Below are positions 1-33,658 of a DNA stretch of 34,603 nucleotides, piece by piece. This DNA is from a bacterium (GTDB taxonomy: Bacteria; Patescibacteriota; Gracilibacteria; Peribacterales; Peribacteraceae), in contig JAQCIJ010000009.1 of NCBI GenBank assembly GCA_027592135.1, forward strand, positions 1-34,603, written 5' to 3'. The position numbers and the translations under genes are program-made. A model generated the notes under the pieces. It worked only from the letters and a program-made list of their open reading frames with translations, was not told where the DNA came from and made no database searches. Position 1 is the stretch's first letter; every line of letters starts with the position of its first letter.

Positions 1-3000
1 ATGTTCGCGACAACTCTATCCATTTTGTGTCTGTAACTTTCAGTAGCACCAAGACATCGTCTGGCCCTCTAATTTTGTAGTCTTCTTTTAGCACTAAGCT
101 CTTGGTTTTTCGCACAGTAATTTCGTGCTCTTCATCAAATCCTTGTAGGACGAGTATTTGGTTTACGGTACCGCCATCGATCTTGGCAAGAACATCAGTA
201 TCGTCACTGTTTTCTGTATCAATAAGATAGAAAGTTCCACCAATACTAATCTGCCCATCAGAGATCGTTTGCAGGTTTCCATTTTCTCCTAATTCTGGGA
301 GATGATTTTCTATATCTTCTACGCGCTTTTCAAGATTCGTAAGTCGAGATGCAAACAGTCCCATGGTTTCTCCAAGTGAGGATCCAAAGGAAAGTATGTC
401 AATCTCAGAATTTCGCACGTTTGTTACTAGCTCTTTGAGAGCTGCAATGACTACCATTTGCATTTCGATGCCAAAGCGGATTTTCTTAAAGCCATCTTCT
501 TGGTCAGATACGAGGTGTGGGAATACTTGCTCTAACTCCTGAGCAATAAGACCTACCGATGTGCCGTGTTCTGGGGCACCTGCTTTCCAGTCAAATTGTA
601 CAGGGTTTAAGAGTTCTACTTTCCCAAGCATTCCTTCAAGTGGCACAATATTTTCTTTTAGTCGCACATCAGAAAGACATGTTCCTCCAACAGTAGTGGT
701 ATCATCTGTCTGGAAACATCCAGTCACATCGATATCGCCCTCGACATCCAATGCATCGTTTGGTGTACCGGTACCAATATTGATACCAGTAGTACCCACA
801 GTCATCTTTGTAATACCATTTGCTTTGATAGAAAGTTTATCAGGAGTTCCTCCTGCATTTATAAATGCACCATCAGTATTATCACCACCCATATGCAAGA
901 ATCCAGCATTATTTGAGGAATCATCTCTCAATTGAATATGGGTAGTTTGTCCTGCTGTAGCATTGTCTACAGTGAGTGTCCCTGCTTCTATATGTAGGCT
1001 TGTAGCTGGTACATCAGTTCCGATACCGATACGTTCATTTATTGTATTCACATTAAAGACAGGATTTCCGCCATTTGCATCGTTAATTTGGAATGCTGTT
1101 GTAGAGTCTATGAGATTTCTAAATACTGCATAACCAGAACCAGAAAGAAGATCAGTAGAGTGAAGTGTGCTTCCAGAAATTGTTCCGACTACTTCAAGTT
1201 CTGTCTCTGGCGTATTGGTTTTGATACCCACTTTTTGATCATTGCTGACAAATATTGCAGGTTGTGCGTCTGCTGCATTTGAGAATACTTTGAATCGGTA
1301 GTCTGTTGTAGGGGATACAGAATATGCTGTAGGTGCTGTAGTAATATTATCCCCTGCAGGGTTGAGTCGTACCCAGTATTTATTTGTTACTTCAGAATTT
1401 ACACTTGTTACAGCCCAGTTTTCTGGATTGACGAATGTGACAGCTCCGTCTTGTGTCAGGTTACTTGTGGTATCTCTGTACCCGGTAACCGTCCATGCAC
1501 TTCCATTCCAGTATTCGACTTCAAATGTAATTCCTGCTCCTGCTACTGCTAGGTCGAAGTAGACAGTAAAGAATGGATCATCCATACCTATGTAGAATAG
1601 GTCATTACTTGGATTTTCTGCTGTAAAGATTGTAAATGCAGTACCACCAGTTGTTCGTGCTTCTGCAAGATTGTCAGCGTACGATACGCTATCGAAATTG
1701 TAGGCACCATTCAATCCTGGAGGATCAATTGCCAATGATCCACTTGTTGTTAGCGAATTATACGTATCGCGGAAGAGGTTGGTATCAAAGATATTTTTGT
1801 AGCCAAAGAGGATGTGAGGATTCTCTGATGCATTAGGAGTCGGCATACTTATACGCAAGCCTGGCTCGGATGTAGCTTCACTATCCACATCAACCGCAAT
1901 ACCATTTCCGTCGGTGTCCGCAAGGAATGTTGTCGCTGCACCATCCTGTTGCAAATGCATCACGGTTGTACTATCTGCATTAGCATGATCATTCTCGAGA
2001 TGGAATAAACTACGTTTACCTGTGTTACTTGAATTACTAATTCCCGTAAAGATCAGACCGGTTCCAGTAGTAAGAGCATTTGCATCGCCAATATCTATTA
2101 CTTTACCTGTAGTTAAGGTTGCAGCTGATATGTTGATGATGTCTGATGTTGTTGCCTCGGAGTCGATATCAAGAGCAATCCCTTCACCATCTTGGTTAAG
2201 GAACAGTGCTGCATTTGTTGTAAGGTTTTCAATAACAGCGTAACCAGATCCTGTAAGAAAACGACCAAAGTGTAGGTGTTCACCAGAGGCTGTTCCGACA
2301 ACTTCTAGAGCCAAATTACTGTCGATCGTATTTGCGGCAACGCCACCGACATCAATCAGCAAGCCACCAGTCATTGTATCTCCACCCGTTTCCACGTAGC
2401 GGTTATCGAAGAAGTTCTGGAGGGAGCCCGTGCCGGAGAATCCGCCTCCCCCACTTTGATCGGTTCCACAGCTAAACGTCCCGTCATCCGCGTTCCAGAG
2501 CAGCTTATCCGTCGAACCGGTATCACAATCACTTAGTCCTGCTCCGTAGAGTCCACTTTCTACTGCGAGAGAACCTGATGTGCTTAAGTGATCCTGCGCA
2601 TGAATTGTCGCACCAGAGATGGTTCCTATTACCTCAAGGTCATCATCGAAGATAAAGCTTGCGAGTGTTCTATCGTACGTAAGCCTCTTATTAAGAGATC
2701 CACCAAACTGTAGATACAAGTCTGCTGCGCTGTCGGTATCATCAATCGTTTGAAACGCCTCTGTATTGACAATAAGAGTAGGAGCCCAACTACTAGCAGC
2801 ACCAGCTACTTGTGGCAGTGCAATAAGGAAGAAGATTGATATATTGATAATTGCCGCAACCAGAGCCAATACGACTCCAGGCTTTTTCGAGAAATGTCCT
2901 CGCCATACACTTAGCATGCTACGCAATCCGCACAACATACAATGGTGATCTTTTCGCTTATCATTGCTAAAAAGTGCACTCTTTGGTGCATTCTCTAATG

Positions 3001-3202
3001 TTGAGAGATCATTCAGGTCTAGACGGTTATACCACCTATAGAATGTCGTTCGCGCTATACCAAACTCATTACAAGTTTTCGAAACTGTCTGATGTCCGGC
3101 AAAATCGACAAACCAACGCAAACGCTCTACCACCTCCGGATGATCACCCATTTGGTGTGCCCGTTCGAGAAGTGCCAGAAGTGTGTGTTTGTTTGGTGTC
3201 AT
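1..3202 (-). CDS. Partial CDS (C-terminus off window): N-terminal transposase-like HTH, TM segment, long tail-fibre-like ectodomain, C-terminal Peptidase S74 intramolecular chaperone domain
   Basis: Manual minus-strand translation. Starts MTPNKHTLLALLERAHQMGDHPEVVERLRWFVDFAGHQTVSKTCNEFGIARTTFYRWYNRLDLNDLSTLENAP (HTH), then TM LALVAAIINISIFFLIALPQVAGAA, repeats such as RYVETGGDTMTGGLLIDVGG, and the S74 signature CLSDVRLKENIVPLEGMLGKVELLNPVQFDW...VGLIAQELEQVFPHLV. Not in ORF track because it has no stop inside the window. Confidence 0.88.
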   Translation of the reverse strand, partial: MTPNKHTLLALLERAHQMGDHPEVVERLRWFVDFAGHQTVSKTCNEFGIARTTFYRWYNRLDLNDLSTLENAPKSALFSNDKRKDHHCMLCGLRSMLSVWRGHFSKKPGVVLALVAAIINISIFFLIALPQVAGAASSWAPTLIVNTEAFQTIDDTDSAADLYLQFGGSLNKRLTYDRTLASFIFDDDLEVIGTISGATIHAQDHLSTSGSLAVESGLYGAGLSDCDTGSTDKLLWNADDGTFSCGTDQSGGGGFSGTGSLQNFFDNRYVETGGDTMTGGLLIDVGGVAANTIDSNLALEVVGTASGEHLHFGRFLTGSGYAVIENLTTNAALFLNQDGEGIALDIDSEATTSDIINISAATLTTGKVIDIGDANALTTGTGLIFTGISNSSNTGKRSLFHLENDHANADSTTVMHLQQDGAATTFLADTDGNGIAVDVDSEATSEPGLRISMPTPNASENPHILFGYKNIFDTNLFRDTYNSLTTSGSLAIDPPGLNGAYNFDSVSYADNLAEARTTGGTAFTIFTAENPSNDLFYIGMDDPFFTVYFDLAVAGAGITFEVEYWNGSAWTVTGYRDTTSNLTQDGAVTFVNPENWAVTSVNSEVTNKYWVRLNPAGDNITTAPTAYSVSPTTDYRFKVFSNAADAQPAIFVSNDQKVGIKTNTPETELEVVGTISGSTLHSTDLLSGSGYAVFRNLIDSTTAFQINDANGGNPVFNVNTINERIGIGTDVPATSLHIEAGTLTVDNATAGQTTHIQLRDDSSNNAGFLHMGGDNTDGAFINAGGTPDKLSIKANGITKMTVGTTGINIGTGTPNDALDVEGDIDVTGCFQTDDTTTVGGTCLSDVRLKENIVPLEGMLGKVELLNPVQFDWKAGAPEHGTSVGLIAQELEQVFPHLVSDQEDGFKKIRFGIEMQMVVIAALKELVTNVRNSEIDILSFGSSLGETMGLFASRLTNLEKRVEDIENHLPELGENGNLQTISDGQISIGGTFYLIDTENSDDTDVLAKIDGGTVNQILVLQGFDEEHEITVRKTKSLVLKEDYKIRGPDDVLVLLKVTDTKWIELSRT

Positions 3203-16729: not shown

Positions 16730-19036
16730 ATGAAAACAAACCTTGTCATTGGAGCAGTTACCTCAGCCGCGCTTGGACTGGTCGTTCTGATATCTCCATC
16801 GGTCCTAATAGCCCAGCTTCCGTACTCTGAATGTACTGGAGAAGTGTATGGAACAGCAGGGTGCCCTTTGGTTTCAGATGACCCAACTCCACCGAATTGT
16901 GGCGATGCAATTTTAGATGAAGCTGCAGGAGAAGAGTGTGACGAAGGTCGATTTAATGGTGTCAGTTTCTGTAGTGACGAATGTAAAATCTTCTACTGCG
17001 GAGATGCCGAAGTGCAAAATCACATCGGAGAAGAGTGTGACCTTGGAGTAAATGTCTATGCAGAGGAGCAAGGTGGAGTAGATTTGATCTTTGATAATGA
17101 TAAAATTGGTAATTACGCAAACCAGTGTGGGAATGCATGTATTCCTCCTTGCCCTTTAAAGAAGGATGCAAGTGGAGAATATGACCTTGATGATGAGGGA
17201 AACTATCAACTTAATTGTGATTCTGGATTACTTCCAAGCAGGTGTACATATGCAATATTTGAAGAACAATGTGATGTAGCACCAGACCCTACTACTCAGA
17301 CGACAACCGATACTTCAGGAGACAATGATATCACCGTAAATCTTACGTTCCCATTCCCTCAGCAACAGCAAACATCTTCTGTTTCAAAAGATTCTCAACA
17401 AGTAGCCCAAAGTCCTGTTTGTGGAAACGGCGTTCCTGAACTTGGTGAAATGTGTGATGACGGTAATCAAGTTGATATCGACAAATGTACCAATGATTGC
17501 AAAGTTGCCTACTGTGGAGATGGACAACGAGAAGGAGCTGAGCAGTGTGATACCAGGGGTGCAGACACCAGTACGTGTGATGCGGACTGTAGTTTTCCAG
17601 ATTGTGGTGATGGCTATCGCAACAAAAACACCGGAGAAGAATGTGACGATGGAAACGAAAGCAATGACGATAATTGTACTGATCAATGTAAAAAGTCCAA
17701 GTGTGGAGACGGTTACAAGCAACCGGGTGAACAGTGCGATGATGGAAACTCAGTCGATCTCGACAAGTGTCGTAATGACTGTACGATCCCAGTGTGTGGA
17801 GATGGTTCTATAGACCGTGGAGAGGAGTGTGATGACGGTAACTTCAACAATACAGATAGCTGTACCAATCAGTGTAAACAGGCGAAGTGTGGTAACGGCG
17901 CAAAAGATGGTAAAGATGAATGCGATGATGGCAATACGAATAACTTTGATTCTTGTAAAAATGACTGTTCAATCCCGTATTGTGGAGATGCGGTAATAAC
18001 AGCAGAACCTCCATATGCAGAACAATGTGATGATGGTAATAAGACAGATGATGATCAGTGTAACAACAGCTGTAAAAAGCCAGGTTGTGGTGACGGAGTT
18101 GTTCAAGAGAATCTTGGAGAAACCTGTGATGATGGAAACACAGTAAATATTGATGCTTGTAGCAATAAGTGCCAGAAGGCATCATGTGGAGACAATATTG
18201 TGCAGACAGGAGAACAGTGTGATGACGGTAATAAGATTAACACTGACAGCTGTACCAATATCTGTACGCAGTCAAAGTGTGGTGATGGATACATCCAAAC
18301 AGGTGAGGAATGCGACGATGCTAACCGAGAGAATCTCGATGACTGTAGCAATCGTTGTATAGCATCTCGCTGCGGAGATAAGATTGTTCAGCTTTCTGAG
18401 CAATGTGACGACGGAAACAAAAACAACACTGACGAATGTACAAATCAATGTACTATCGCTGTCTGTGGCAACGGAACCGCAGAAGGTACAGAGGCCTGTG
18501 ATGATGGAAATAATAGTGATCTCGATACTTGTCTCAATACTTGCACTTTCCCTGTCTGTGGAAATGGAACGATAGAAGGTGTAGAGGAATGTGACGATGG
18601 AAATCGAAAAAATAAAGACGGGTGTGACATGCGTTGTGGGATAGAAACCATCTGTGGTGATGGTGTCGTTGATGGTATCGAAGAATGTGATGCAGGTGAA
18701 TTAAATTCCAATACAGAAGCAAACTCTTGTAGATCAAACTGCCGCGTAGCCTTCTGTGGAGACGGTGTAATTGACAAGGGAGAAGAGTGTGACAGTACAG
18801 ACAGTTGTACGTCCGAGTGCCTCTACCCAACGTTTATGGCAGCCAACGGAAACAGCATATGGGGTTCTACGGTTATAATACTACTGATGGGAGGAGGTGG
18901 GTTGGCATTCCTCTACCGCAGAAAGATCTTAGATCTTTCTATAAAGGCTGCAGAAAGCGTACAAGCGTTTTCTATTGATGATATCCCACTCGATGAATTA
19001 GAGATGCCATGGCACAAGTGGAACGATAAAAAATAA
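16730..19036 (+). CDS. Secreted/membrane-anchored Cys-rich repeat protein (DUF4215 / Myxococcus Cys-rich repeat type)
   Basis: Signal sequence, about 15 tandem modules of CGDGxxxxGEQCDDGNxxNxDxCTNxC, C-terminal TM VIILLMGGGGLAFLYRRK and short basic/acidic tail. Confidence 0.9.
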   Translation: MKTNLVIGAVTSAALGLVVLISPSVLIAQLPYSECTGEVYGTAGCPLVSDDPTPPNCGDAILDEAAGEECDEGRFNGVSFCSDECKIFYCGDAEVQNHIGEECDLGVNVYAEEQGGVDLIFDNDKIGNYANQCGNACIPPCPLKKDASGEYDLDDEGNYQLNCDSGLLPSRCTYAIFEEQCDVAPDPTTQTTTDTSGDNDITVNLTFPFPQQQQTSSVSKDSQQVAQSPVCGNGVPELGEMCDDGNQVDIDKCTNDCKVAYCGDGQREGAEQCDTRGADTSTCDADCSFPDCGDGYRNKNTGEECDDGNESNDDNCTDQCKKSKCGDGYKQPGEQCDDGNSVDLDKCRNDCTIPVCGDGSIDRGEECDDGNFNNTDSCTNQCKQAKCGNGAKDGKDECDDGNTNNFDSCKNDCSIPYCGDAVITAEPPYAEQCDDGNKTDDDQCNNSCKKPGCGDGVVQENLGETCDDGNTVNIDACSNKCQKASCGDNIVQTGEQCDDGNKINTDSCTNICTQSKCGDGYIQTGEECDDANRENLDDCSNRCIASRCGDKIVQLSEQCDDGNKNNTDECTNQCTIAVCGNGTAEGTEACDDGNNSDLDTCLNTCTFPVCGNGTIEGVEECDDGNRKNKDGCDMRCGIETICGDGVVDGIEECDAGELNSNTEANSCRSNCRVAFCGDGVIDKGEECDSTDSCTSECLYPTFMAANGNSIWGSTVIILLMGGGGLAFLYRRKILDLSIKAAESVQAFSIDDIPLDELEMPWHKWNDKK

Positions 19037-20580: not shown

Positions 20581-23500
20581 TTGGAACAAAATAAGACACT
20601 TCATCAACGGGTCTTCACTACGGTTGCCGTCTGTGCAATAGTGTACAGTTTTTTTCATCAGGCACAGTTAATGATGAAACCGATACCTCTTGCATTTAAA
20701 TCGACAGATATTGCATGGGGATACAACTTGGATACATTTTCTGGAACGGTATACCACGATAAAGGTGTTACTGCCATTCGAGCGGGTACAGGAGTTGCTC
20801 TGCATGTAAATGGTTCAGCGACAGCAACGACCACTACAAACGCGAGCGGGGTATTCACCTTTACAAATATCGAAGTTGTTGCAAACGATGTAGTAACGAT
20901 CTTTGTCGATAACAATGCAGCATTGGATGCTGTCCGCGTTGTAAAGTTTGATGCAGCGACTCTAACAGATGACTCGGTAACAGATATGGATCTTTATAAA
21001 GATGTACTTATCATTGGTGCAGCGCTGAATGCTGGAAGTACAACAGGAGATAATATTACTACGACAAACTTGAATCTTGCTGATAATGCAGGGGATGCAG
21101 ATGTCACGGCAATCTACAGTCTGACCAATGCAAATAGAGATTTGCAGATGGGATATGGGAAAGAACTTCTGGTTCATGCCGAAGCTTCGCACACAGCGAG
21201 TGGAGCAATCTACACACATGACTTGGATGTCCGCGGAAGTCTGAACGCAGGAACAGGAACAATCTTTGCTTCTGGTTCGGTAGTTGCTGTCGGAAACTTC
21301 ACAGCACTTACAGCACTGTCTCTCACTGCAAAGAACTCAGGAGAGCTCATCAACGTAGCTGGAGCAATTCCAGGAGACGTGTATATCGACAGTGGCCTTG
21401 AAACATATTTTAGGTTTGACGAAGGTGCAGGACTCAACGCCTCTGGAAGTATGCTGACTACAGCTTCTGGTGGGTCTCTAACAAACGGAGCGGCATGGGT
21501 ACAAACGAATACTGGCACAACACTCTTTTATAATCCTTATGCAATTGAATTTGATGATACAAATGATTATATAGAATTTAACTCAAGCTTCAATTTGAAG
21601 TTACTTGATTTCAAAACATTTGCAGGTTGGTTTAGGAGAAAAGGTACTGGTACTACTGATGTAATTCTTGGTAACACAACAAGCTCCGGAACTTTGCTTG
21701 CGGGACGTGGAGGATATTCTATCTGGGTAAACCCTTCAACAAATAAGATTAACGCTTCTCTTTTTGACACAGGAGGATCGGTGACAACAGTTGTATCAGA
21801 AACGGCACTTACTGATCAAAATTGGCATCACTTTGCAGTTTCAATAGATACATCTACTGCAGGATCACCAAAGATTGGATTCTTTTTGGATGGTGCTATG
21901 GATGGATACACAACAGGATCACTTGGGACAACAGCTGGATTTATAAGCACAAAGCCATTTACCGTTGGAGCACTATCTTCAAGCGGAACAGGTGTATTTG
22001 ATGGAACTATCGATGATGTACGTATTTACAACCGCGTTCTCTCTGGTGGAGAACTCTCTGTAATTGCAACAGGAAACAAGTCTACAGGTTCTGGAACGTA
22101 CTACTTGAGTGGTGCTATTAATATCGATGGAGATCTGGGTATTTACGGAGGTACTCTTGATGTAGGTACGAAAACTCTTCGAGTAGCAGGAGACATTAAT
22201 GCCTTTGGCGAGCTTCGGACAAATAGTGGAATAGTTATTCTCGATGGAACAGCACAGATTCTTCGTGGTTCAACAGCCTTTAACCAACTCTCAAAATCTG
22301 TAACATCAACAACGACACTCTCCTTTGAAAGCAATACAGAGCAAACAGTATCTGGTGCTATCACACTACAGGGGACAACAAATAACCGTCTAAGCCTTCG
22401 CGCAACTGTTGTTGGAGACCAAGCATTCCTTATTGTCGAAAGCTCTGGTGCAACTATCCTCAAGAACCTTAATATAAAAGATAACAATGCCCTTACTGGA
22501 GCATTGATGTCCTGTACCTCTGGTTGTATCGATAATGGTAACAATATCAACTGGGCATTCTTAGGAGAGTGTGGAGATGGTGTGGTAAATACAGGTGAGG
22601 CTTGTGATGATGGTAATACCAATAATCTCGACTCGTGTCCGAATGACTGTGCACTGGCCGCTTGTGGAGATAGTGTCATAGAAGGGCTAGAGGAATGCGA
22701 TCCCCCTAATACCGGTTTCTGTCAGAGTAACTGTCTGTTTAGAGGAGCTGGAGGTGGCGGAGGTCGAAGAAACAGGTCTTCTTCTGCTTCTACTGCTTCA
22801 TTCTTTCAGAGACCAGAACCACCAGATGGGTGCGGAAATGCTGTGTTAGAAACGGAAAAAGGAGAGGAGTGTGACACGGGCACACGCTTTAACGGAATGG
22901 GTACGTGTTCATTCGGATGTAAGTTACTCACATGTGGAGACGGGGTCATCAATCCACAGAATGGAGAAGACTGTGAGCCTAAAAAAGGAGCTCTACAAAA
23001 TGGAATACAGCAATTTGAAGTAGCAACATGCGGTGAAATATGTACTGCAGCAGTCACAACTGCAGAGGGGACGCTATGGGGTGGATGTAAACGCATTTTC
23101 TTGCAACCTTGTGAAGTGGAAGGGTCTTCTTCCTCTTCATCTTCTATCAAAGCTTCTAAGTGTGGAAATGGAATAGTAGATAGAGGAGAAGAGTGTGATT
23201 TTGGAGGAATCTGCGAAGGTGGTGACTTTGCAGGATCATTCTGGACTGATAAAACTTCTGCTACAACTTGTGAGAATGGAGGTGGTATACCTAGTCCTGT
23301 AGGAGGAGATGGATGTAGTGGAACTTGTACTACAGAGTATTGTGGAGATGGGTCGGTTCAAGTACGTGGTGCAGACAATCAACCGCAAACAGAAGATGAT
23401 GAGCAGTGTGATAATGGTAGTGTCTGTTCAAATGATTCTCTGAAAGTATGTCGATTGGACAATGACTGTGGAACAGGCAATACATGCGAGTATCACCTAG

Positions 23501-24750
23501 TAAAAGATAGGAAATGTTCAGATAAATGTAAGAACTCTACGAGTGCGTCGAAACCAAAGCCTTCCGCACCTTCTACACCAACTGCACAATGTGGCAATGG
23601 AAAAGTAGAGGGGCCAGAACAGTGTGATGAAGGAACACAAAACGGTATTGGTGATAGCACGTGTACAACAACCTGTACAAAACGCATTGTGGATCGATCG
23701 ACAACTCCAACAAATGCTGTTTGTGGGAACGCAGTCGTAGAAAAAGATGAAGAGTGTGACAGTGGAGATAATAATTCTGATATATTGTCGAATGCCTGTC
23801 GTACAAATTGTGTAAAACCGACTTGTGGTGACTTCGTAATAGATCAAAATGAAAAATGTGATAGCGGAGATGCAAACTCAGATTTCTACTCTGACACCTG
23901 TCGTTATGATTGTACCTTGCCGACATGTGGTGATGGTGTTGTTGATAGTGATGAAGAATGTGACAGCTCGTGGTCTTGTCTGCCAAACTGTAGGCTTGCA
24001 ATGCAGCCATCTCGCTGCGGGAATGGAAAAGTAGAAACTGCGGAGCAGTGTGATGATGGAAATATAGCTTCAGGAGATGGCTGTAGTAGATTTTGCCAAA
24101 AAGAAGAACCAACAGTTTCTAAAAGCATTTGTGGAAATGGCGTTACTGAAGTGGGCGAGCAATGTGATGATGGTAATCTCGCTGACGAAGATGGCTGTAG
24201 CTCTGGGTGCATGATAAAAGAACTTGTTATTCGCAAAGCAGCAGCAGCAGAGCTTCAGCTTGATGCCGATGTTGTGGTCGTGAACCCTACAGAGATTGCT
24301 ACAGCTCTAAAATTTATTGTAGGAAATGATCCATGCTCTACTTTAGTGATTAAGGGGCAAAACCAGAAAGCATCTTTGATTCGTGCAGCAGCCTTAGAGC
24401 AAAAGATTCCTATTGTACGAAACATTGACCTTGCGAGGGCAATCTACAAATCAGTACGGCCTGGAGAAATTATTAACGGAGAACTCTGTGATGAAGTAAA
24501 TAAGCTAAAAGTTCAGAAAAAGCAGGTTCCAGCAAAACCTTCTGCACCCATTATACAGCCTAGCATGCCACAGCTTCCACAGGCACCAACACAGTTTGCC
24601 TACGGATACTACCCATATGCACAAGTCACACCAATGATCACTCAGCATCAACCAGTAGGGGAAACAGGTCCGGCTGTGGTCGGAGTCATTGTCGCAGGTG
24701 CGGCAGGTGGAATGGGGTGGATGCGAATACGCAGGAAGAGAATGCTCTAG
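20581..24750 (+). CDS. Giant surface protein: signal sequence, LamG-like domain, DUF4215-like Cys modules, FlhB/YscU-type C-terminal domain, Pro-rich stalk, C-terminal TM
   Basis: LamG-like YAIEFDDTNDYIEFNSS...WHHFAVSID...DGTIDDVRIYNRVLSGGEL; modules CGDGVVNTGEACDDGNTNNLDSC; ADVVVVNPTEIATALKF...LVIKGQNQKASLIRAAALEQKIPIVRNIDLARAIYKSVRPGEIINGELCDEV; TM AVVGVIVAGAAGGMGWMRIRRKRML. TTG start. Confidence 0.85.
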   Translation: MEQNKTLHQRVFTTVAVCAIVYSFFHQAQLMMKPIPLAFKSTDIAWGYNLDTFSGTVYHDKGVTAIRAGTGVALHVNGSATATTTTNASGVFTFTNIEVVANDVVTIFVDNNAALDAVRVVKFDAATLTDDSVTDMDLYKDVLIIGAALNAGSTTGDNITTTNLNLADNAGDADVTAIYSLTNANRDLQMGYGKELLVHAEASHTASGAIYTHDLDVRGSLNAGTGTIFASGSVVAVGNFTALTALSLTAKNSGELINVAGAIPGDVYIDSGLETYFRFDEGAGLNASGSMLTTASGGSLTNGAAWVQTNTGTTLFYNPYAIEFDDTNDYIEFNSSFNLKLLDFKTFAGWFRRKGTGTTDVILGNTTSSGTLLAGRGGYSIWVNPSTNKINASLFDTGGSVTTVVSETALTDQNWHHFAVSIDTSTAGSPKIGFFLDGAMDGYTTGSLGTTAGFISTKPFTVGALSSSGTGVFDGTIDDVRIYNRVLSGGELSVIATGNKSTGSGTYYLSGAINIDGDLGIYGGTLDVGTKTLRVAGDINAFGELRTNSGIVILDGTAQILRGSTAFNQLSKSVTSTTTLSFESNTEQTVSGAITLQGTTNNRLSLRATVVGDQAFLIVESSGATILKNLNIKDNNALTGALMSCTSGCIDNGNNINWAFLGECGDGVVNTGEACDDGNTNNLDSCPNDCALAACGDSVIEGLEECDPPNTGFCQSNCLFRGAGGGGGRRNRSSSASTASFFQRPEPPDGCGNAVLETEKGEECDTGTRFNGMGTCSFGCKLLTCGDGVINPQNGEDCEPKKGALQNGIQQFEVATCGEICTAAVTTAEGTLWGGCKRIFLQPCEVEGSSSSSSSIKASKCGNGIVDRGEECDFGGICEGGDFAGSFWTDKTSATTCENGGGIPSPVGGDGCSGTCTTEYCGDGSVQVRGADNQPQTEDDEQCDNGSVCSNDSLKVCRLDNDCGTGNTCEYHLVKDRKCSDKCKNSTSASKPKPSAPSTPTAQCGNGKVEGPEQCDEGTQNGIGDSTCTTTCTKRIVDRSTTPTNAVCGNAVVEKDEECDSGDNNSDILSNACRTNCVKPTCGDFVIDQNEKCDSGDANSDFYSDTCRYDCTLPTCGDGVVDSDEECDSSWSCLPNCRLAMQPSRCGNGKVETAEQCDDGNIASGDGCSRFCQKEEPTVSKSICGNGVTEVGEQCDDGNLADEDGCSSGCMIKELVIRKAAAAELQLDADVVVVNPTEIATALKFIVGNDPCSTLVIKGQNQKASLIRAAALEQKIPIVRNIDLARAIYKSVRPGEIINGELCDEVNKLKVQKKQVPAKPSAPIIQPSMPQLPQAPTQFAYGYYPYAQVTPMITQHQPVGETGPAVVGVIVAGAAGGMGWMRIRRKRML

Positions 24751-26178: not shown

Positions 26179-28419
26179 CTAAATCAGAGGCTCTTCAAAC
26201 TTTTCTTCTACTGCTCGAATCTCTTTATCAGTAGGGACTTCCTTAGCAGCCTCATCCCATTTCTTAAGAATCTCTTCGACCTCTTTTTTTGGCTTACAGT
26301 ATTTCTTTCGTGAGAGATCTTTGATCTCACTAGAGATGTCATTTATTACTGGTGGTACATCTATTGTTCTTCCAGAGAATGGTTCTCGAATCTCTCCATT
26401 TACTGACATTTTTATGTAAAACTCACGCACGCCAAGGTTGATGATATCGCGTTCCTTAAAAATTGGCTCAAACTCTTTTTCAAGTACAGCTGCATCGTCT
26501 GCTCCTACACGGAAAGAGATCATAGAACCAACGTTACCAAATACTGTCTGACGGATCTTGCTACTAAGTTGTCCCATGTACTGGTGAGCAATAGTCAGGT
26601 TTAAGTGATACTTACGTGCCTCACTCATGATTTCATAGAACGTGTCTGTCGCAAAGTTCTGGAACTCATCGACGTAGAAGTAGAAGTTTGTGCGATCTTC
26701 TTCTTTGATATTTGCACGAGCCATCGCCGCTTGGTAAATCTTGGTAATGATCATGGAACCAATAAGAGAACTGTTTTCTTCTCCAAGAAGGCCTTTCGAT
26801 ACTTTCATGAGAAGAATCTTTCTGTTATCCATGATGTCCTTAATATCAAACTGTGTGTCTGGTTGACCCACAACGTTGCGCACCATATTTGTTGCGACAA
26901 ACTGACCTACTTTGTTGAGTAGTGGGGTAATAGCATCAGCATCGTACTTTTCGCTCCAGGCAGCAAACTCTGATACCCAGAAGCTTTTAACAACGTTATC
27001 GTTAATACGAGCAACGATCTTTTGACGGTAGTTTTTGTCGGTAAGCATTTTAAGGATTGAAAGCACCGTAGTGTTAGGGCTATCAAGTAACGCAAGTATT
27101 GTGTATCGCAGAACGTGTTCGAGGCGGTCACTCCAGTTTGTTCCAAAGAGTTTTTTAAAAATATCAATAATTCCAATCGTCAGCTGCATTTTGTAATCAT
27201 CATCAACTTGCTCTAGAGGATTAAAGGCGATAGGAAAATCAGTATCACTCGGATCAAAGAGAATCACATCGTTCTTTCTTTCTTGTGGTATGTACTGAAG
27301 AACAGCATCGACTAAGTCTCCGTGAGGGTCCAGTACGGCAACACCTTCACCATTGATAATATCGTCGATAATGAGAAGTTCGAGGAGTTTACTTTTTCCA
27401 GAACCAGACTTACCAACAAGGTACAAGTGACGCCGGCGGTCTTCTCGGCTAATACCAAATGGAACATAGTTGTTGTGATAGTTGGTGATACCAAATCCTG
27501 AGACATTTTTTGCATCTGCGCGAGGCAAGTCCTGTGGTGGATCAGATTTACGCGCAAGAACATGTACGATGTGTGGAACTTGATCTGCATTTGGAAGGTG
27601 GTATAACGTTGCTGCTTCTTCTGCACTGAGAATAAATGACGTTCCGTGCTTACGAGATGCAAATTGTGTTGCAAAGGCAGAATTTGTAGAAATGCGAGAT
27701 GCGGCAAATCCGTTAATGTCTGTATCGTTAAAGTGGTAGAAGCTATTAATAACGGCATTGATTTTTAGCTTTGCTTTTTCTTCTGTAGAACTAATGTACG
27801 CAAGACGGATACTTGTTCTAAATGGCTTACTCTTTTCTTTTTTAGCAGCAAGTTCAAATCGGGTAGTGTTGATACCCTTAAGACCTTCTTTACGTAGGCG
27901 GTCACGTATAGAGAAGAACTTCTTAATACGTACAAAGTAAAATCGCCAGTTACGCCGAAAGTGGTATGCACCGGTATCATCATGCGGCTCCATCACAATT
28001 TGCACCCAGACTTGCTCTCCAGTTTCGATTTTCGACACAACAGAGAAGAGTCTGGACATACTATCTTCATCAAATTGATCGTACGTACGAATGGGATACA
28101 CGTCTTTCTCGCGAAGCTTGAGGTTTGTACCGGCAATTCCTTGAGTATTTGGATCAAACTTTGTTGTGTAATCCTTTGTATTGCGGATCTCTGCATCAGG
28201 GAATATCGAGTAAATAAGCCCCTCTATTGTTTCACTGTACTGAGCATCAACAACAATATAAAAATAGGTGTATTGCTCGTATCCAAAGTATTCAAAAGAA
28301 AAGCGAACTCCAGTTACCGTATTGCGTAGACTAATCAAAAGCTCCTGGAATTTTGACTCCATCTTGACCTTTTCAGGCGTTCCTTGAGGGATAATGATAT
28401 TGAGGTATGATAGAGCCAT
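26179..28419 (-). CDS. Type IV secretion/conjugative-transfer family ATPase (TraD/VirD4/HerA-like)
   Basis: Walker A LYLVGKSGSGKSKLLELLI, VAVLDPHGDLVDAVL, Walker B-like NFYFYVDEFQNFATDTF, IAHQYMGQL. Confidence 0.85.
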   Translation of the reverse strand: MALSYLNIIIPQGTPEKVKMESKFQELLISLRNTVTGVRFSFEYFGYEQYTYFYIVVDAQYSETIEGLIYSIFPDAEIRNTKDYTTKFDPNTQGIAGTNLKLREKDVYPIRTYDQFDEDSMSRLFSVVSKIETGEQVWVQIVMEPHDDTGAYHFRRNWRFYFVRIKKFFSIRDRLRKEGLKGINTTRFELAAKKEKSKPFRTSIRLAYISSTEEKAKLKINAVINSFYHFNDTDINGFAASRISTNSAFATQFASRKHGTSFILSAEEAATLYHLPNADQVPHIVHVLARKSDPPQDLPRADAKNVSGFGITNYHNNYVPFGISREDRRRHLYLVGKSGSGKSKLLELLIIDDIINGEGVAVLDPHGDLVDAVLQYIPQERKNDVILFDPSDTDFPIAFNPLEQVDDDYKMQLTIGIIDIFKKLFGTNWSDRLEHVLRYTILALLDSPNTTVLSILKMLTDKNYRQKIVARINDNVVKSFWVSEFAAWSEKYDADAITPLLNKVGQFVATNMVRNVVGQPDTQFDIKDIMDNRKILLMKVSKGLLGEENSSLIGSMIITKIYQAAMARANIKEEDRTNFYFYVDEFQNFATDTFYEIMSEARKYHLNLTIAHQYMGQLSSKIRQTVFGNVGSMISFRVGADDAAVLEKEFEPIFKERDIINLGVREFYIKMSVNGEIREPFSGRTIDVPPVINDISSEIKDLSRKKYCKPKKEVEEILKKWDEAAKEVPTDKEIRAVEEKFEEPLI

Positions 28420-28501: not shown

Positions 28502-30199
28502 TTAATACACCTCATTTAAGTAACATTCCTCACAATAGACGGTTTCTGGTTTATCTGGAGAGTATGTCGTTTGAATGTCTTTTTGGCATTTGCCACATTG
28601 GCGACTGAAGAGTGTGCGAGGGTTCCTGAGTGCAAATCGATCCAAATCTCTTTGATGAGGAGATCTGCGTGGAATTGGTAGTCCGATCTGCCTGTAGAGC
28701 TTGAGCTCCAATGACTGTAACTTAAAAAGCTTTCCAGAAATCTCACAACGAATAGCCCAATTGAGGACATCATCAGGAACATCCTTTGATGAATCTGGTA
28801 GTTGATCTGCATGGATAGTCTTTGTAGTCATAGGCGGTGGTGGTTCGTAATCGTCCCATTGCCAACCACGTTCCAGTGTCTGCTCTTTGGTAAGAGGAAA
28901 ATACATGAATGCCGTTGTTTTGTTGTATCCAACCCAAGAATTTTTTGTATCAATCATCTCACCCCACTCTCCAGTCGTTTTCATGTGCTCAATGATCTTT
29001 GGAACCAATTCTTCATATTCCTCCTTAGTGTATTGTTTATTTAAAATGCAGTATTGCTTGTTGTGCAAACCTGCACATCCAAAACAGTCTTTGCACCGTT
29101 CTAGGTACATACAGTAGAGTAGATCATTACTATTCAGGTGCCCTTCTACAGTAAATAGAAGGTGGTAACTATTTTCTCCAGTAATACAGCACTGGTAGCT
29201 TTCCTGAATGTTTGTACCGTACTGGTTCATGTCATGGCAATTGCGAGCGCCAAGAACAAGTTGGTAACAGTATTTTAAGTTTTCCCCATCTTCGATGTCG
29301 TAAGAGTTCATAACATTCTTGCAGTTTACTAAATGATCTCCACTGCACTTTTCTAAATTGTGTCCCTGAAATTCTTTATAGGTGTGGTTCTTCTCAAATT
29401 CATGTAATTCATTTTTGAATTGTTGATATTGAGCATAAGAAGTCAGATCAATCTTTAACATTTCATTTTCATATTCTTCTTTTGTACGTTGTTGATTTCG
29501 AATGCAGTACTGTTTCTCACGAAGGCCATAACTCAAGAAGCAATCTTGGCAACCAATACAATCTCTTAAAAAAGCACTACTTCGAGTATTAAGACAATCC
29601 TGACAACCAATTAATCCATAACATTTATGGATATCGACGCAGTCGTAACAGAGTTCACTGTGCAAATTGTAGAAACCATCGAAACAGGAAGTGTTTTTCT
29701 TAAAACCGTATCCGTAGAGACAGTCTTCACACAAATCTGCATGAGCTAATAAGTAACAGTTCTTTAAGGATCCGACCATATGTGTATAGTCAGAGTTGAT
29801 CATTGTTTGTTGTTGGCTAACGCTCTGGTCTGGAGCAGCCATCTTTAGCGCGCTAAATTGAGGAAACATCGGCTTCGTAAAATTTGGATCTCTGCCAGTG
29901 GCAGTTTGATCCCACTTGTCGCTATGCCAACACTCTCTACAATAAATTGGTTTACTTGATTCAGGGGAAAACTGGTTGAGAACTGTCTTATTACAGAGAT
30001 CACAAGTATCGAGAACAATGTGCTTCTCATTAACGAGGGCTATACGTGCTTGCTGTCTGCAATCCGGGCAGAGCTTTGGTACCGGAAGATTGTACTTCGT
30101 CTCTTTAAAAATAGGAGACATACGATCGTAAAACTCTAGATCTTCATCAGTTACCTCAAATGCCGTATTACACCAGTTATTTGTACACTTCTTTTGCAT
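28502..30199 (-). CDS. Cys-ladder zinc-ribbon protein of unknown function, paralog A
   Basis: N-terminal CxxxxC...CPDCRQQAR ribbon, central CxxC-rich repeats (CIGCQDCF), twin KQYCIxNxQxTKEEYE motifs, C-terminal CGKCQK...PETVYCEECY ribbon. Confidence 0.85.
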   Translation of the reverse strand: MQKKCTNNWCNTAFEVTDEDLEFYDRMSPIFKETKYNLPVPKLCPDCRQQARIALVNEKHIVLDTCDLCNKTVLNQFSPESSKPIYCRECWHSDKWDQTATGRDPNFTKPMFPQFSALKMAAPDQSVSQQQTMINSDYTHMVGSLKNCYLLAHADLCEDCLYGYGFKKNTSCFDGFYNLHSELCYDCVDIHKCYGLIGCQDCLNTRSSAFLRDCIGCQDCFLSYGLREKQYCIRNQQRTKEEYENEMLKIDLTSYAQYQQFKNELHEFEKNHTYKEFQGHNLEKCSGDHLVNCKNVMNSYDIEDGENLKYCYQLVLGARNCHDMNQYGTNIQESYQCCITGENSYHLLFTVEGHLNSNDLLYCMYLERCKDCFGCAGLHNKQYCILNKQYTKEEYEELVPKIIEHMKTTGEWGEMIDTKNSWVGYNKTTAFMYFPLTKEQTLERGWQWDDYEPPPPMTTKTIHADQLPDSSKDVPDDVLNWAIRCEISGKLFKLQSLELKLYRQIGLPIPRRSPHQRDLDRFALRNPRTLFSRQCGKCQKDIQTTYSPDKPETVYCEECYLNEVY

Positions 30200-30205
30200 A
30201 GGATT

Positions 30206-31897
30206 TTAGTATACCTCATTTAAGTAACATTCCTCACAAAAAACTGTTTCTGGTCTTTCGGGGCTGTAGGAGGTTTGAATTGATTTTTGGCAGTTGGAGC
30301 ACTTGCGATCAAAAATTTTAAATGGATTAGTAAAAGCAAACCTATCCTTATGGCGTTGGTCAGGATGCCTACGAGGAATAGGGAGTTTGTGAAACCTATA
30401 AAAATCGAGTTCTTGCTTAATTATCACAAAAGGTTTTTTGGTTATTTCACAACGAATAGCCCAGTTGCAAACATCATCAGGAATATCTGTATTGTCATCA
30501 GGAAGTTGTTCTGCATCAATTATTTTTTCTACAACAACAGGAGATTTATAGTCACTCCACTGCCATCCACGTTCGAGTACTTCTTCTTTTTTCAGTGGAA
30601 AGTAAACATCTGCTACGGATTCATTGTAACCAAATGCAGAGATCTTTGTCGGGAAAAATTCACCCCATTCTTCAGTGTCCTTCATATGTTCTACAATCTT
30701 TGCTACGAGTTTGTGATATTCTTCTGGTGTATATTGCTTGTTAAGAATGCAGTAGTTCTGGTGTATCATTCCAATACAACCAAATAAATTATTACAAGAT
30801 CTTGTGCAAAATAGTGAGTAATACACATTATTACATCCTTCATATACATAGAGACAGCCAAGAATATTTCGCGTGCGCTCACCTATACAGCAAGAGTCAT
30901 AACACAGTTCCATGCCTCCGCCCCATATATGTACATCCATGTTATCCTTGCCTCCCATAAGGCAGTTTGTGCAATATCGAGAGTCTTGCATATCATTACA
31001 ATCAAAGCAGTATGCAGAATCTTTGGATCGATTTAAGTTATCACCCTTACTGTCAATATTTTGAACACATCGAGACTTCTTAACAGGGTGGTTTAAGAAA
31101 AATCTTTTAGACTGGTTTTTATACTTTGTAATCTCTGCATGTGAACTTGTAGTAAAGTTTTGTATGAATTTGTCATACTCCTCACGAGTTTTTTGTTCAT
31201 TAAAAATACAGTATTGCTTTTGGTGAAGATTGGCACAACCGAAGCAATCCTTACATCCGATACAGTCTCGAAGGAAGTACGAATCTCGGCAGTTGTGACA
31301 AAATTGCGAATAAAAAACATGATAGCAGGAGTAACAATGTGTGCACTCATAGCATAGTTCGCAGTGTTCTATGTGTAGAAAATCTGTGCAATTTTTATTA
31401 TATATAAATGTTTGCCCATAGTAACAATCTTCTGCCTCTTCACCATCAAATATCATATAACAGTTTTTCATCTTGTAGGCATCATTTGCGTACTCTGTAT
31501 TCTGGTTGTATGTCATGAGAGAAAGTGACGGTAGTGGAGTGCATTTACGCAGCTCTTCCCATTGTTCAAAAAATGGTCTTGTAAAATCAAAATCTCTTCC
31601 AAAATCTAACGGACTCCAGTTATCGCTAAACCACTCATCCTTCTCGTAAATATTCATCTTCTTATCTGGAGAATACATTGAGATAATATTCTTTCCAGTT
31701 TTGCTGCACTCTCGCTTATAGAGGTTTCGTGTATTGTAGAAAGCAAGCCTCCTTTGCAGTCTACAATTAAAACACATCGTAGGTTCTGGTATTGGAAAAT
31801 CCTTACCATCAAAGACAGGCGTCATCTTATTGAGTAAATTTCGATCTGAATCGGAGAACTCAAACCCTGCCGAACACTGAGCACACTGTTTTTGCAT
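30206..31897 (-). CDS. Cys-ladder zinc-ribbon protein of unknown function, paralog B
   Basis: Same architecture: CAQCSAGFEFS...CFNCRLQRRLAF; DCIGCKDCFGCANLHQKQYCIFNEQKTREEY; CSNCQKSIQTSYSPERPETVFCEECYLNEVY. Confidence 0.85.
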   Translation of the reverse strand: MQKQCAQCSAGFEFSDSDRNLLNKMTPVFDGKDFPIPEPTMCFNCRLQRRLAFYNTRNLYKRECSKTGKNIISMYSPDKKMNIYEKDEWFSDNWSPLDFGRDFDFTRPFFEQWEELRKCTPLPSLSLMTYNQNTEYANDAYKMKNCYMIFDGEEAEDCYYGQTFIYNKNCTDFLHIEHCELCYECTHCYSCYHVFYSQFCHNCRDSYFLRDCIGCKDCFGCANLHQKQYCIFNEQKTREEYDKFIQNFTTSSHAEITKYKNQSKRFFLNHPVKKSRCVQNIDSKGDNLNRSKDSAYCFDCNDMQDSRYCTNCLMGGKDNMDVHIWGGGMELCYDSCCIGERTRNILGCLYVYEGCNNVYYSLFCTRSCNNLFGCIGMIHQNYCILNKQYTPEEYHKLVAKIVEHMKDTEEWGEFFPTKISAFGYNESVADVYFPLKKEEVLERGWQWSDYKSPVVVEKIIDAEQLPDDNTDIPDDVCNWAIRCEITKKPFVIIKQELDFYRFHKLPIPRRHPDQRHKDRFAFTNPFKIFDRKCSNCQKSIQTSYSPERPETVFCEECYLNEVY

Positions 31898-31978
31898 ATG
31901 AGGCTAGTATACGCGATCAATATCGCGTATCTCGATTAGAAGACAAAGTATTTGCTGGTGTTGATACGTAAGTAATCA

Positions 31979-33658
31979 TTAGATAAGAGATTCTTGATAA
32001 CACGGTTCACAATAAATCTTCTCCGGTCGATCTGGTGCATAGCTTGTTTCTATAGCAACATTGCATTTATCACACGTGCGATCATACAGAACACGAGGGT
32101 TTCGCATCTTGAGGTGATGTTTATATCTCTGGAAGAAGCTGATACGTGGTAGAGGAATGTGTAGCTGCTTATAGAAGGCTAGCTCCTGAGGAATAATCTT
32201 GTACTGCTTAGCGGTTTCTTCACAGGTAAGAATCTGTGAGCAGATATCTTCTGAAACATCTACGATTGAATCTGGAAGCTTTACTTTAGGACCCATGTAC
32301 TGGTCTTTCTTCTCTACTTCATCGATCCAATTCCAACTCTTTCCGAGTACACCTTCTTTTGTCATTGGGTAGTAATCCTGTGCCAGAGTTTCATTGTATC
32401 CGTATGTAGAGACTTCTACGGGGAAGAATTCCCCCCATTCACCATGTTTTATCATATGTTCTATAATCTTCGGCACAAGTTCATTGTATTGTTCTTCTGT
32501 ATATTGCTTATTAAGGATGCAGTACTGCTTACGTTGTACCCCTATACATCCGAAGCAATTTTTAGAGTGATTACTTAAGCTGCAATAGATCATGTCATTC
32601 ATCTGTGCGAGTGTGTGATTCGAGAATAGACATCGAGAAATGTCATACCCAGCAACACTACATTCATACAACAGCTCTCCTTCACCACACTCATGAATGT
32701 CCATGCAATTTTTAAGTGGCATAAATCCCTGAGTTACATATCTGCAATCCCAAAGATCTTCAGAGTCAAAACACTTGTAGGCATTTTTACATTGTACAAG
32801 GTAGTCACCAGAGACATCTTCGTTCTGTACACCGTGTAGATATTTTTGAGGGTGTTCTAGTTTCAGATTTTCAAAACGCTCTTTTGCAGATTGCAATGTA
32901 GAGTGGCTCCCTAGCATTAAACGAAACTTTGCAAATTCTTCTTTGGAAACAGGTTTGTTTTCTACATAGTATTCTTTGTTTTTTACATTACTGCACATCA
33001 AGCAGTTTTTGCATCCAGTACAATTTTTAAGAAACATGGAGTCTGCACAGTTATCACATTCTTGGAGGTATGCAGAGCTGTAACATTTTACAGAGTCGAT
33101 ACATTCGTAACACAGCTCAGACTTTCTGGTTCTAAAACAATCAACACAATTTACACAGTGATTAAGGCTATAACTAAAGTAGCAATCACGGTTTTCATCA
33201 CTATCAAAAATCATGTAGCAGTCTTTATTTTTTCCAGCGTGATTCGTGTATTCGCAGTTCTCATCAAACTCGTATCCTGTAAATACATTTGGACGAGGTA
33301 CTTTTTGGATAAGCTCAAACCATTGATCAAAAAAAGGTCGAGTAAAATCAAATGGTTGTCCATAGTCGAGCGCACTCCACTTATCACTATACCAATCCTC
33401 CTGCCTATATACTTTATAGGGAGACCCAGGTCTGATATTTGAAATGACGCTTGCTCCTGTTAGGTCACACTTTCTCTCGTAGAGATTTAATTGGTTTACG
33501 TGTGCCATGCGACGTTGTGCTCTGCAGTTGGGGCACTGCTTCGGTGGCGGAAGGGGAATCTTCTTCCCTCCAATAATAGGCGAGAGATCATCAAGCATTT
33601 TACTGTCCTCATCGAGGATCTCAAATTCTGCCGAACATTGGTTGCAAGTAGTTTTCAT
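31979..33658 (-). CDS. Cys-ladder zinc-ribbon protein of unknown function, paralog C
   Basis: CNQCSAEFEIL...CPNCRAQRRMAH; NCTGCKNCLMCSNVKNKEYYVENK; FGCIGVQRKQYCILNKQYTEEQY; CDKCNVAIETSYAPDRPEKIYCEPCY. Confidence 0.85.
   Translation of the reverse strand: MKTTCNQCSAEFEILDEDSKMLDDLSPIIGGKKIPLPPPKQCPNCRAQRRMAHVNQLNLYERKCDLTGASVISNIRPGSPYKVYRQEDWYSDKWSALDYGQPFDFTRPFFDQWFELIQKVPRPNVFTGYEFDENCEYTNHAGKNKDCYMIFDSDENRDCYFSYSLNHCVNCVDCFRTRKSELCYECIDSVKCYSSAYLQECDNCADSMFLKNCTGCKNCLMCSNVKNKEYYVENKPVSKEEFAKFRLMLGSHSTLQSAKERFENLKLEHPQKYLHGVQNEDVSGDYLVQCKNAYKCFDSEDLWDCRYVTQGFMPLKNCMDIHECGEGELLYECSVAGYDISRCLFSNHTLAQMNDMIYCSLSNHSKNCFGCIGVQRKQYCILNKQYTEEQYNELVPKIIEHMIKHGEWGEFFPVEVSTYGYNETLAQDYYPMTKEGVLGKSWNWIDEVEKKDQYMGPKVKLPDSIVDVSEDICSQILTCEETAKQYKIIPQELAFYKQLHIPLPRISFFQRYKHHLKMRNPRVLYDRTCDKCNVAIETSYAPDRPEKIYCEPCYQESLI

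Follow-up and report, generated by a model that had tools for sequence, protein, structure and literature searches.

An FlhB/YscU-type C-terminal domain in a predicted surface protein of Peribacteria: a possible self-cleaving joint apart from type III export gates

Comparable domains and proteins

To our knowledge, autocleavage of the C-terminal domain of FlhB and its relatives (FlhBc) has been described solely as part of type III export gates, and what it serves there is still disputed. A domain of this type is considered here in the protein encoded at 20581-24750 of a 34,603-nucleotide stretch of Peribacteraceae DNA (assembly GCA_027592135.1, contig JAQCIJ010000009.1), referred to below as the window. 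With the C-domains of FlhB, YscU, EscU, Spa40 and SctU (PF01312, TIGR00328, TIGR01404), the window domain shares its profile, its predicted fold and an NPT turn that links strands 1 and 2. Unlike those proteins, the window protein is devoid of the half with four transmembrane (TM) segments, the genome searches detailed below found no export apparatus genes, and the fused domains carry NPTE or NPTD, two invariant Cys, an altered last helix and an apparently extracellular position.

Short FlhB-like proteins (TIGR00789) likewise have an FlhBc-type domain apart from the TM half, but this 84-position model matches the fused domains weakly (best 2.4e-5, five of the 11 members), and in the window fragment its alignment begins past the NPT turn. 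Regarding architecture, SEA and GAIN (GPS) are autoproteolytic domains of animal surface proteins. The design proposed here would resemble theirs in a membrane-proximal self-cut, halves held non-covalently and possible release by force, whereas fold, cut site and origin of the window domain differ. Published Peribacteria genomes encode Cys-rich, Myxococcus-type exported proteins together with sortase A and type IV pili (PMC4736985). The host protein falls in this class, being large, exported, Cys-rich and encoded in sortase-bearing genomes, but an FlhBc fusion is not mentioned there and the words flagell- and FlhB are absent from the text (PMC4736985). A literature search on NPTE, or on FlhB in Peregrinibacteria, returned nothing.

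Identity of the domain

The window domain is a member of the FlhBc family, yet its host is not an FlhB/SctU protein. PF01312 (Bac_export_2) matches the fragment with E=2.5e-20 and 73.4 bits (cut-off 24.4), and the whole protein with E=8.8e-19. The match is confined to profile positions 250-329 of 335; positions 1-249, corresponding to the four-TM N-terminal half of FlhB, are unmatched, and DUF4215 repeats precede the domain instead. The NCBIfam models TIGR01404 (SctU) and TIGR00328 (FlhB) score 75.6 and 61.0 bits, respectively, and the best matches of a PDB sequence search are EscU (1.5e-8) and FlhB (5.9e-8). A first-pass annotation of the same DNA had noticed this likeness to the FlhB/EscU C-terminal domain from the letters alone, and it holds: the residues quoted are carried by this open reading frame, with the Asn codon at 24283-24285 and N-P-T intact at 24283-24291, followed by Glu where NPTH was expected. 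The extent then assigned, 24190-24750, does contain FlhBc but was too wide, as the homologous part covers only about 24262-24501 (24205-24525 with flanking helices) and 24526-24750 is stalk and anchor.

The predicted fold agrees with the profiles. An AlphaFold model built from 66 sequences, FlhB rows included, has a predicted local distance difference test score (pLDDT) of about 84-94 in the core of the domain. It shows a helix and a strand followed by strand, strand, helix, strand, helix and helix, and the NPT turn connects the first strand to the second. A second model, from the 11 Peribacteria sequences alone, guards against the FlhB rows forcing the fold; it shows the same elements at a pLDDT of about 82-89 in the domain, while repeats, stalk and TM segment are of low confidence. 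With both models, the best 34 PDB chains found by Foldseek are all C-domains of YscU, EscU, Spa40, SpaS, PscU, CT091 or FlhB, and the next match stands at E of about 0.5-0.6. SEA and GAIN gave neither a Pfam match in the window protein nor a fold match among the Foldseek results. FlhBc homology, and with it the co-option of a type III switch domain already suspected in the annotation, is as good as certain: profiles, predicted fold, synteny and the genome searches all back it.

Conservation and the question of cleavage

The domain and its NPT turn are under purifying selection in a lineage without a detected export gate. N1235, P1236 and T1237 are invariant in 11/11 fused domains, with varying synonymous codons; ten of these domains continue with Glu and one with Asp. 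The fused domains are 43-74% identical to that of the window, and dN/dS is 0.06-0.14 over the pairs with an estimable dS, with synonymous sites near saturation. The consensus of the last helix in true FlhBs, A-V-A-E-V-L-A-Y, is changed while the NPT turn is kept. C1252 and C1303 are found in all 11, in columns that in 55 FlhBs are 96% Ala and 87% Tyr, respectively, and practically free of Cys, which suggests that a disulfide may join them in the fused domains. Since both follow the cut site, such a bond would leave the two halves unlinked.

These 55 FlhBs are the further relatives recovered from the GTDB collection, all with the domain arranged as in FlhB: in most it starts near residue 250-280 of a frame of 340-400 amino acids (aa), and a small number exceed this length or are truncated. 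The search used Peribacteria-derived patterns, which other fusions could escape. Published papers call NPTH conserved across all homologs, whereas these proteins, nearly all full-length and from Planctomycetota, Zixibacteria, Coprothermobacter and others, have NPTE; they were picked by a PTE-containing pattern, so that their count says nothing on frequency.

Whether NPTE would cut can be judged from mutants of the family. The PDB chains of EscU T264A (3bzv_B) and H265A (3bzx_B) have 83 residues and, as in native EscU, begin with the Pro downstream of the cut. N262A, N262D and P263A are present as 137-residue chains, P263A also as a short chain (3c03_C). In YscU, P264 and H266 substitutions cleave partly and N263 substitutions not at all (PMC3052322). 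The Asn is therefore the essential residue, and it is retained in the fused domains; as the H265A chain is cut, the replacement of His by Glu does not preclude cleavage. By analogy with the family, autocleavage at N1235-P1236 is probable. The halves of cleaved YscU remain joined and part near 55 °C, divalent cations opposing their separation (PMC3504009).

A two-chain, self-cut, releasable surface protein built on an exported FlhBc is the best explanation of these data, and one that we consider somewhat better than an even bet. It can be hypothesized that FlhBc was detached from the export machine and inserted between a Cys-rich ectodomain and a wall or membrane anchor in Peribacteria. The domain would fold as FlhBc after secretion, Asn cyclisation would break the N1235-P1236 bond, the 1235-residue ectodomain would be held on via the buried first beta strand, and the protein could let go of its anchor once the domain is destabilised by force, loss of divalent cations or heat. 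A role as a release or force-sensitive joint is the more speculative part and falls short of an even chance. Several points weigh against this proposal: cleavage may be slower with Glu than with His, NPT might persist purely as a structural turn, and an uncleaved N-terminal signal or other links on the ectodomain would block release after the cut. Moreover, many family members are without the FlhBc domain, which is therefore not essential to this protein class.

The strongest competitor is an exported FlhBc that no longer cuts itself and acts as a rigid spacer stabilised by a disulfide, or as a ligand-binding module, the NPT being a beta-turn needed by the fold. Conservation of the fold, the replacement of His by Glu or Asp and a stabilising disulfide would all suit a plain spacer, and work on Spa40 indicates that surface features around the loop, instead of the cut, may matter in type III secretion systems (T3SS) (PMC2615192). 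However, N, P and T are invariant at 43-74% identity while many columns conserved in FlhB have changed, and the EscU T264A and H265A chains are cut. A non-cutting spacer is rated unlikely, with perhaps a little over a one-in-four standing.

Searches for an export gate

The window genome (1.12 Mb, 98% complete) has a single PF01312 match, namely the fused domain; a hidden second FlhB was considered and rejected, as no further PF01312 match exists there. FlhA (PF00771) was not found in the window genome, and FliP (PF00813) was not found in 12 genomes that include all fusion carriers, the same searches matching four flagellated controls in each case. This agrees with the earlier remark that no export apparatus is in view.

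These searches also bear on a second alternative, in which FlhBc, cleaved or not, still docks a protein partner such as another exported Peribacteria protein. Known binding partners of FlhB and HrcU C-domains include substrates as well as switch proteins (PMC3052322, PMC2615192). In contrast, the searches for FlhA and FliP brought up no further T3SS gene, the consensus of the C-terminal helix is replaced, and no candidate partner was seen, so that a docking site is improbable.

Location of the domain

By inspection, the window protein has candidates for every part of a sortase-anchored surface protein: a putative export signal, a sorting motif, a TM segment and a basic tail. The order is signal, LamG-like domain, DUF4215 repeats, FlhBc, Pro-rich stalk, TM segment and basic tail (Table 1), in keeping with the Cys-rich modules, stalk and TM segment of the first description. 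The anchor motif of FlhBc carriers reads PxG[EDQ]TGP, which differs by inspection from classical LPxTG; sortase matches number 2-4 per genome in 12/12 genomes. Because the domain is flanked by disulfide-type repeats, follows an N-terminal hydrophobic signal, contains two invariant new Cys and precedes a C-terminal TM-RRK anchor, it very probably lies outside the cell. The opposite topology, with the C-terminal segment reversed or forming no TM helix and the domain cytoplasmic, draws on the fact that topology is a prediction and that the hydrophobic C-terminal segment is short and Gly/Ala-rich. It is very improbable given the signal, the Cys-rich repeats directly upstream, the basic residues past the TM segment, the invariant new Cys within the domain and the sortase-type motif.

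Distribution and origin

Within the family, the same fusion was recovered in 11/75 genomes, in three genera (6/6, 4/5 and 1/1 genomes), always in a similar long frame. Beyond the family, samples of 292 genomes of the class and 389 of the phylum gave no above-threshold match; weak PF01312 matches in other genomes, of 17-21 bits, fall below the cut-off, cover the N-terminal part of the profile and were left out of the counts. The remaining genome of the second genus also yielded no conserved Cys-rich region of the host protein, and the whole gene may therefore lie in an assembly gap. An artefact through chimeric assembly, contamination or chance similarity can be dismissed, even with contigs that are all derived from metagenome-assembled genomes, since the fusion recurs in 11 genomes from separate projects and three genera, in one continuous frame with conserved flanks and E=2.5e-20; the recurrence by itself rules out an assembly chimera.

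Syntenic orthologs without FlhBc occur in three genomes of another genus. They are 1176-1275 aa long, with pyruvate kinase head to head and, at a distance of about 5 kb, a DUF4215 paralog. In them the last DUF4215 repeat is followed directly by a Gln/Pro-rich stalk and the same anchor, P-x-G-[DN]-T-G-P. FlhBc was thus gained (or lost) as a separate unit at the junction of ectodomain and anchor. On the tree of the neighbouring pyruvate kinase its presence needs two changes, one change being sufficient in 12% of bootstrap trees; the tree is compatible with one gain as well as two, and one gain with losses, or a transfer, may account for the pattern. With regard to a phage origin, no relative was found among viral contigs at the sensitivity of the search pattern.

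Features of the host protein and neighbouring genes

Table 1. Layout of the 20581-24750 protein (window coordinates)
Feature	Position	Strand	Basis or remark
Whole open reading frame, surface protein of 1389 aa	20581..24750	+	TTG start; exact start uncertain
Basic/hydrophobic N-terminal segment (putative export signal or signal anchor), then conserved A[YW]GY	20581..20721	+	Orthologs share the layout
Laminin_G_3 domain, aa 325-492	21553..22056	+	PF13385, E=4.1e-19
DUF4215/myxo cysteine-rich repeats, 12 CG[ND] motifs, aa 664-1210	22570..24210	+	PF13948, TIGR02232
FlhB/YscU/SctU C-terminal domain, aa 1228-1307	24262..24501	+	PF01312, E=2.5e-20; fold match
NPTE turn, N1235-P1236-T1237-E1238	24283..24294	+	Cut expected from the family at N1235/P1236, after base 24285
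Cys1252, start of strand 3	24334..24336	+	Invariant in the fused domains (11/11); true FlhBs mostly have Ala
Cys1303, start of last helix	24487..24489	+	Invariant in the fused domains (11/11); true FlhBs mostly have Tyr
Pro/Gln/Tyr-rich stalk	24526..24651	+	Low model confidence
P-x-G-E-T-G-P sortase-like sorting motif, aa 1358-1364	24652..24672	+	G.TGP invariant in alignment; presumed role
C-terminal TM segment and Arg/Lys-rich tail (TM-RRK)	24673..24747	+	Would put the preceding domain outside

Upstream of this gene, the window encodes a DUF4215 paralog (16730-19036, +) with 11 repeats, a C-terminal TM segment and a presumed cytoplasmic tail, [SI]DDIPLDELEMPWHKW, which is strikingly conserved in the window and at 12 other family loci (some overlapping). 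A second type of self-cleaving module in the window is Peptidase_S74 (endosialidase chaperone), at aa 844-898 of a large protein of 1067 aa (2-3202, -). A T4SS coupling or HerA-like ATPase (26182-28419, -; PF02534, 1.4e-9) adjoins a PMT/TPR protein, and three proteins of about 560 aa in a row (28505-33658, -) have weak to moderate matches to the treble-clef zf_Tbcl_2.

Meaning for Peribacteria and for the FlhB family

What the fusion most likely gives these tiny groundwater Peribacteria is a surface protein with a built-in cut site near its membrane anchor. It may tentatively be read as a type III switch domain turned into an extracellular, disulfide-stabilised, self-cleaving joint for release or force sensing, which could represent a bacterial counterpart of SEA and GAIN with a different fold and chemistry (Asn cyclisation); roughly one chance in three is what we would allow it. 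A lineage that retains FlhBc and its NPT turn under purifying selection, with no export gate detected, separates the chemistry of the domain from secretion and offers a soluble test object. If the reading is true, Peribacteria would possess a bacterial, independently evolved self-cut surface stalk, in a group whose cell contacts are poorly understood.
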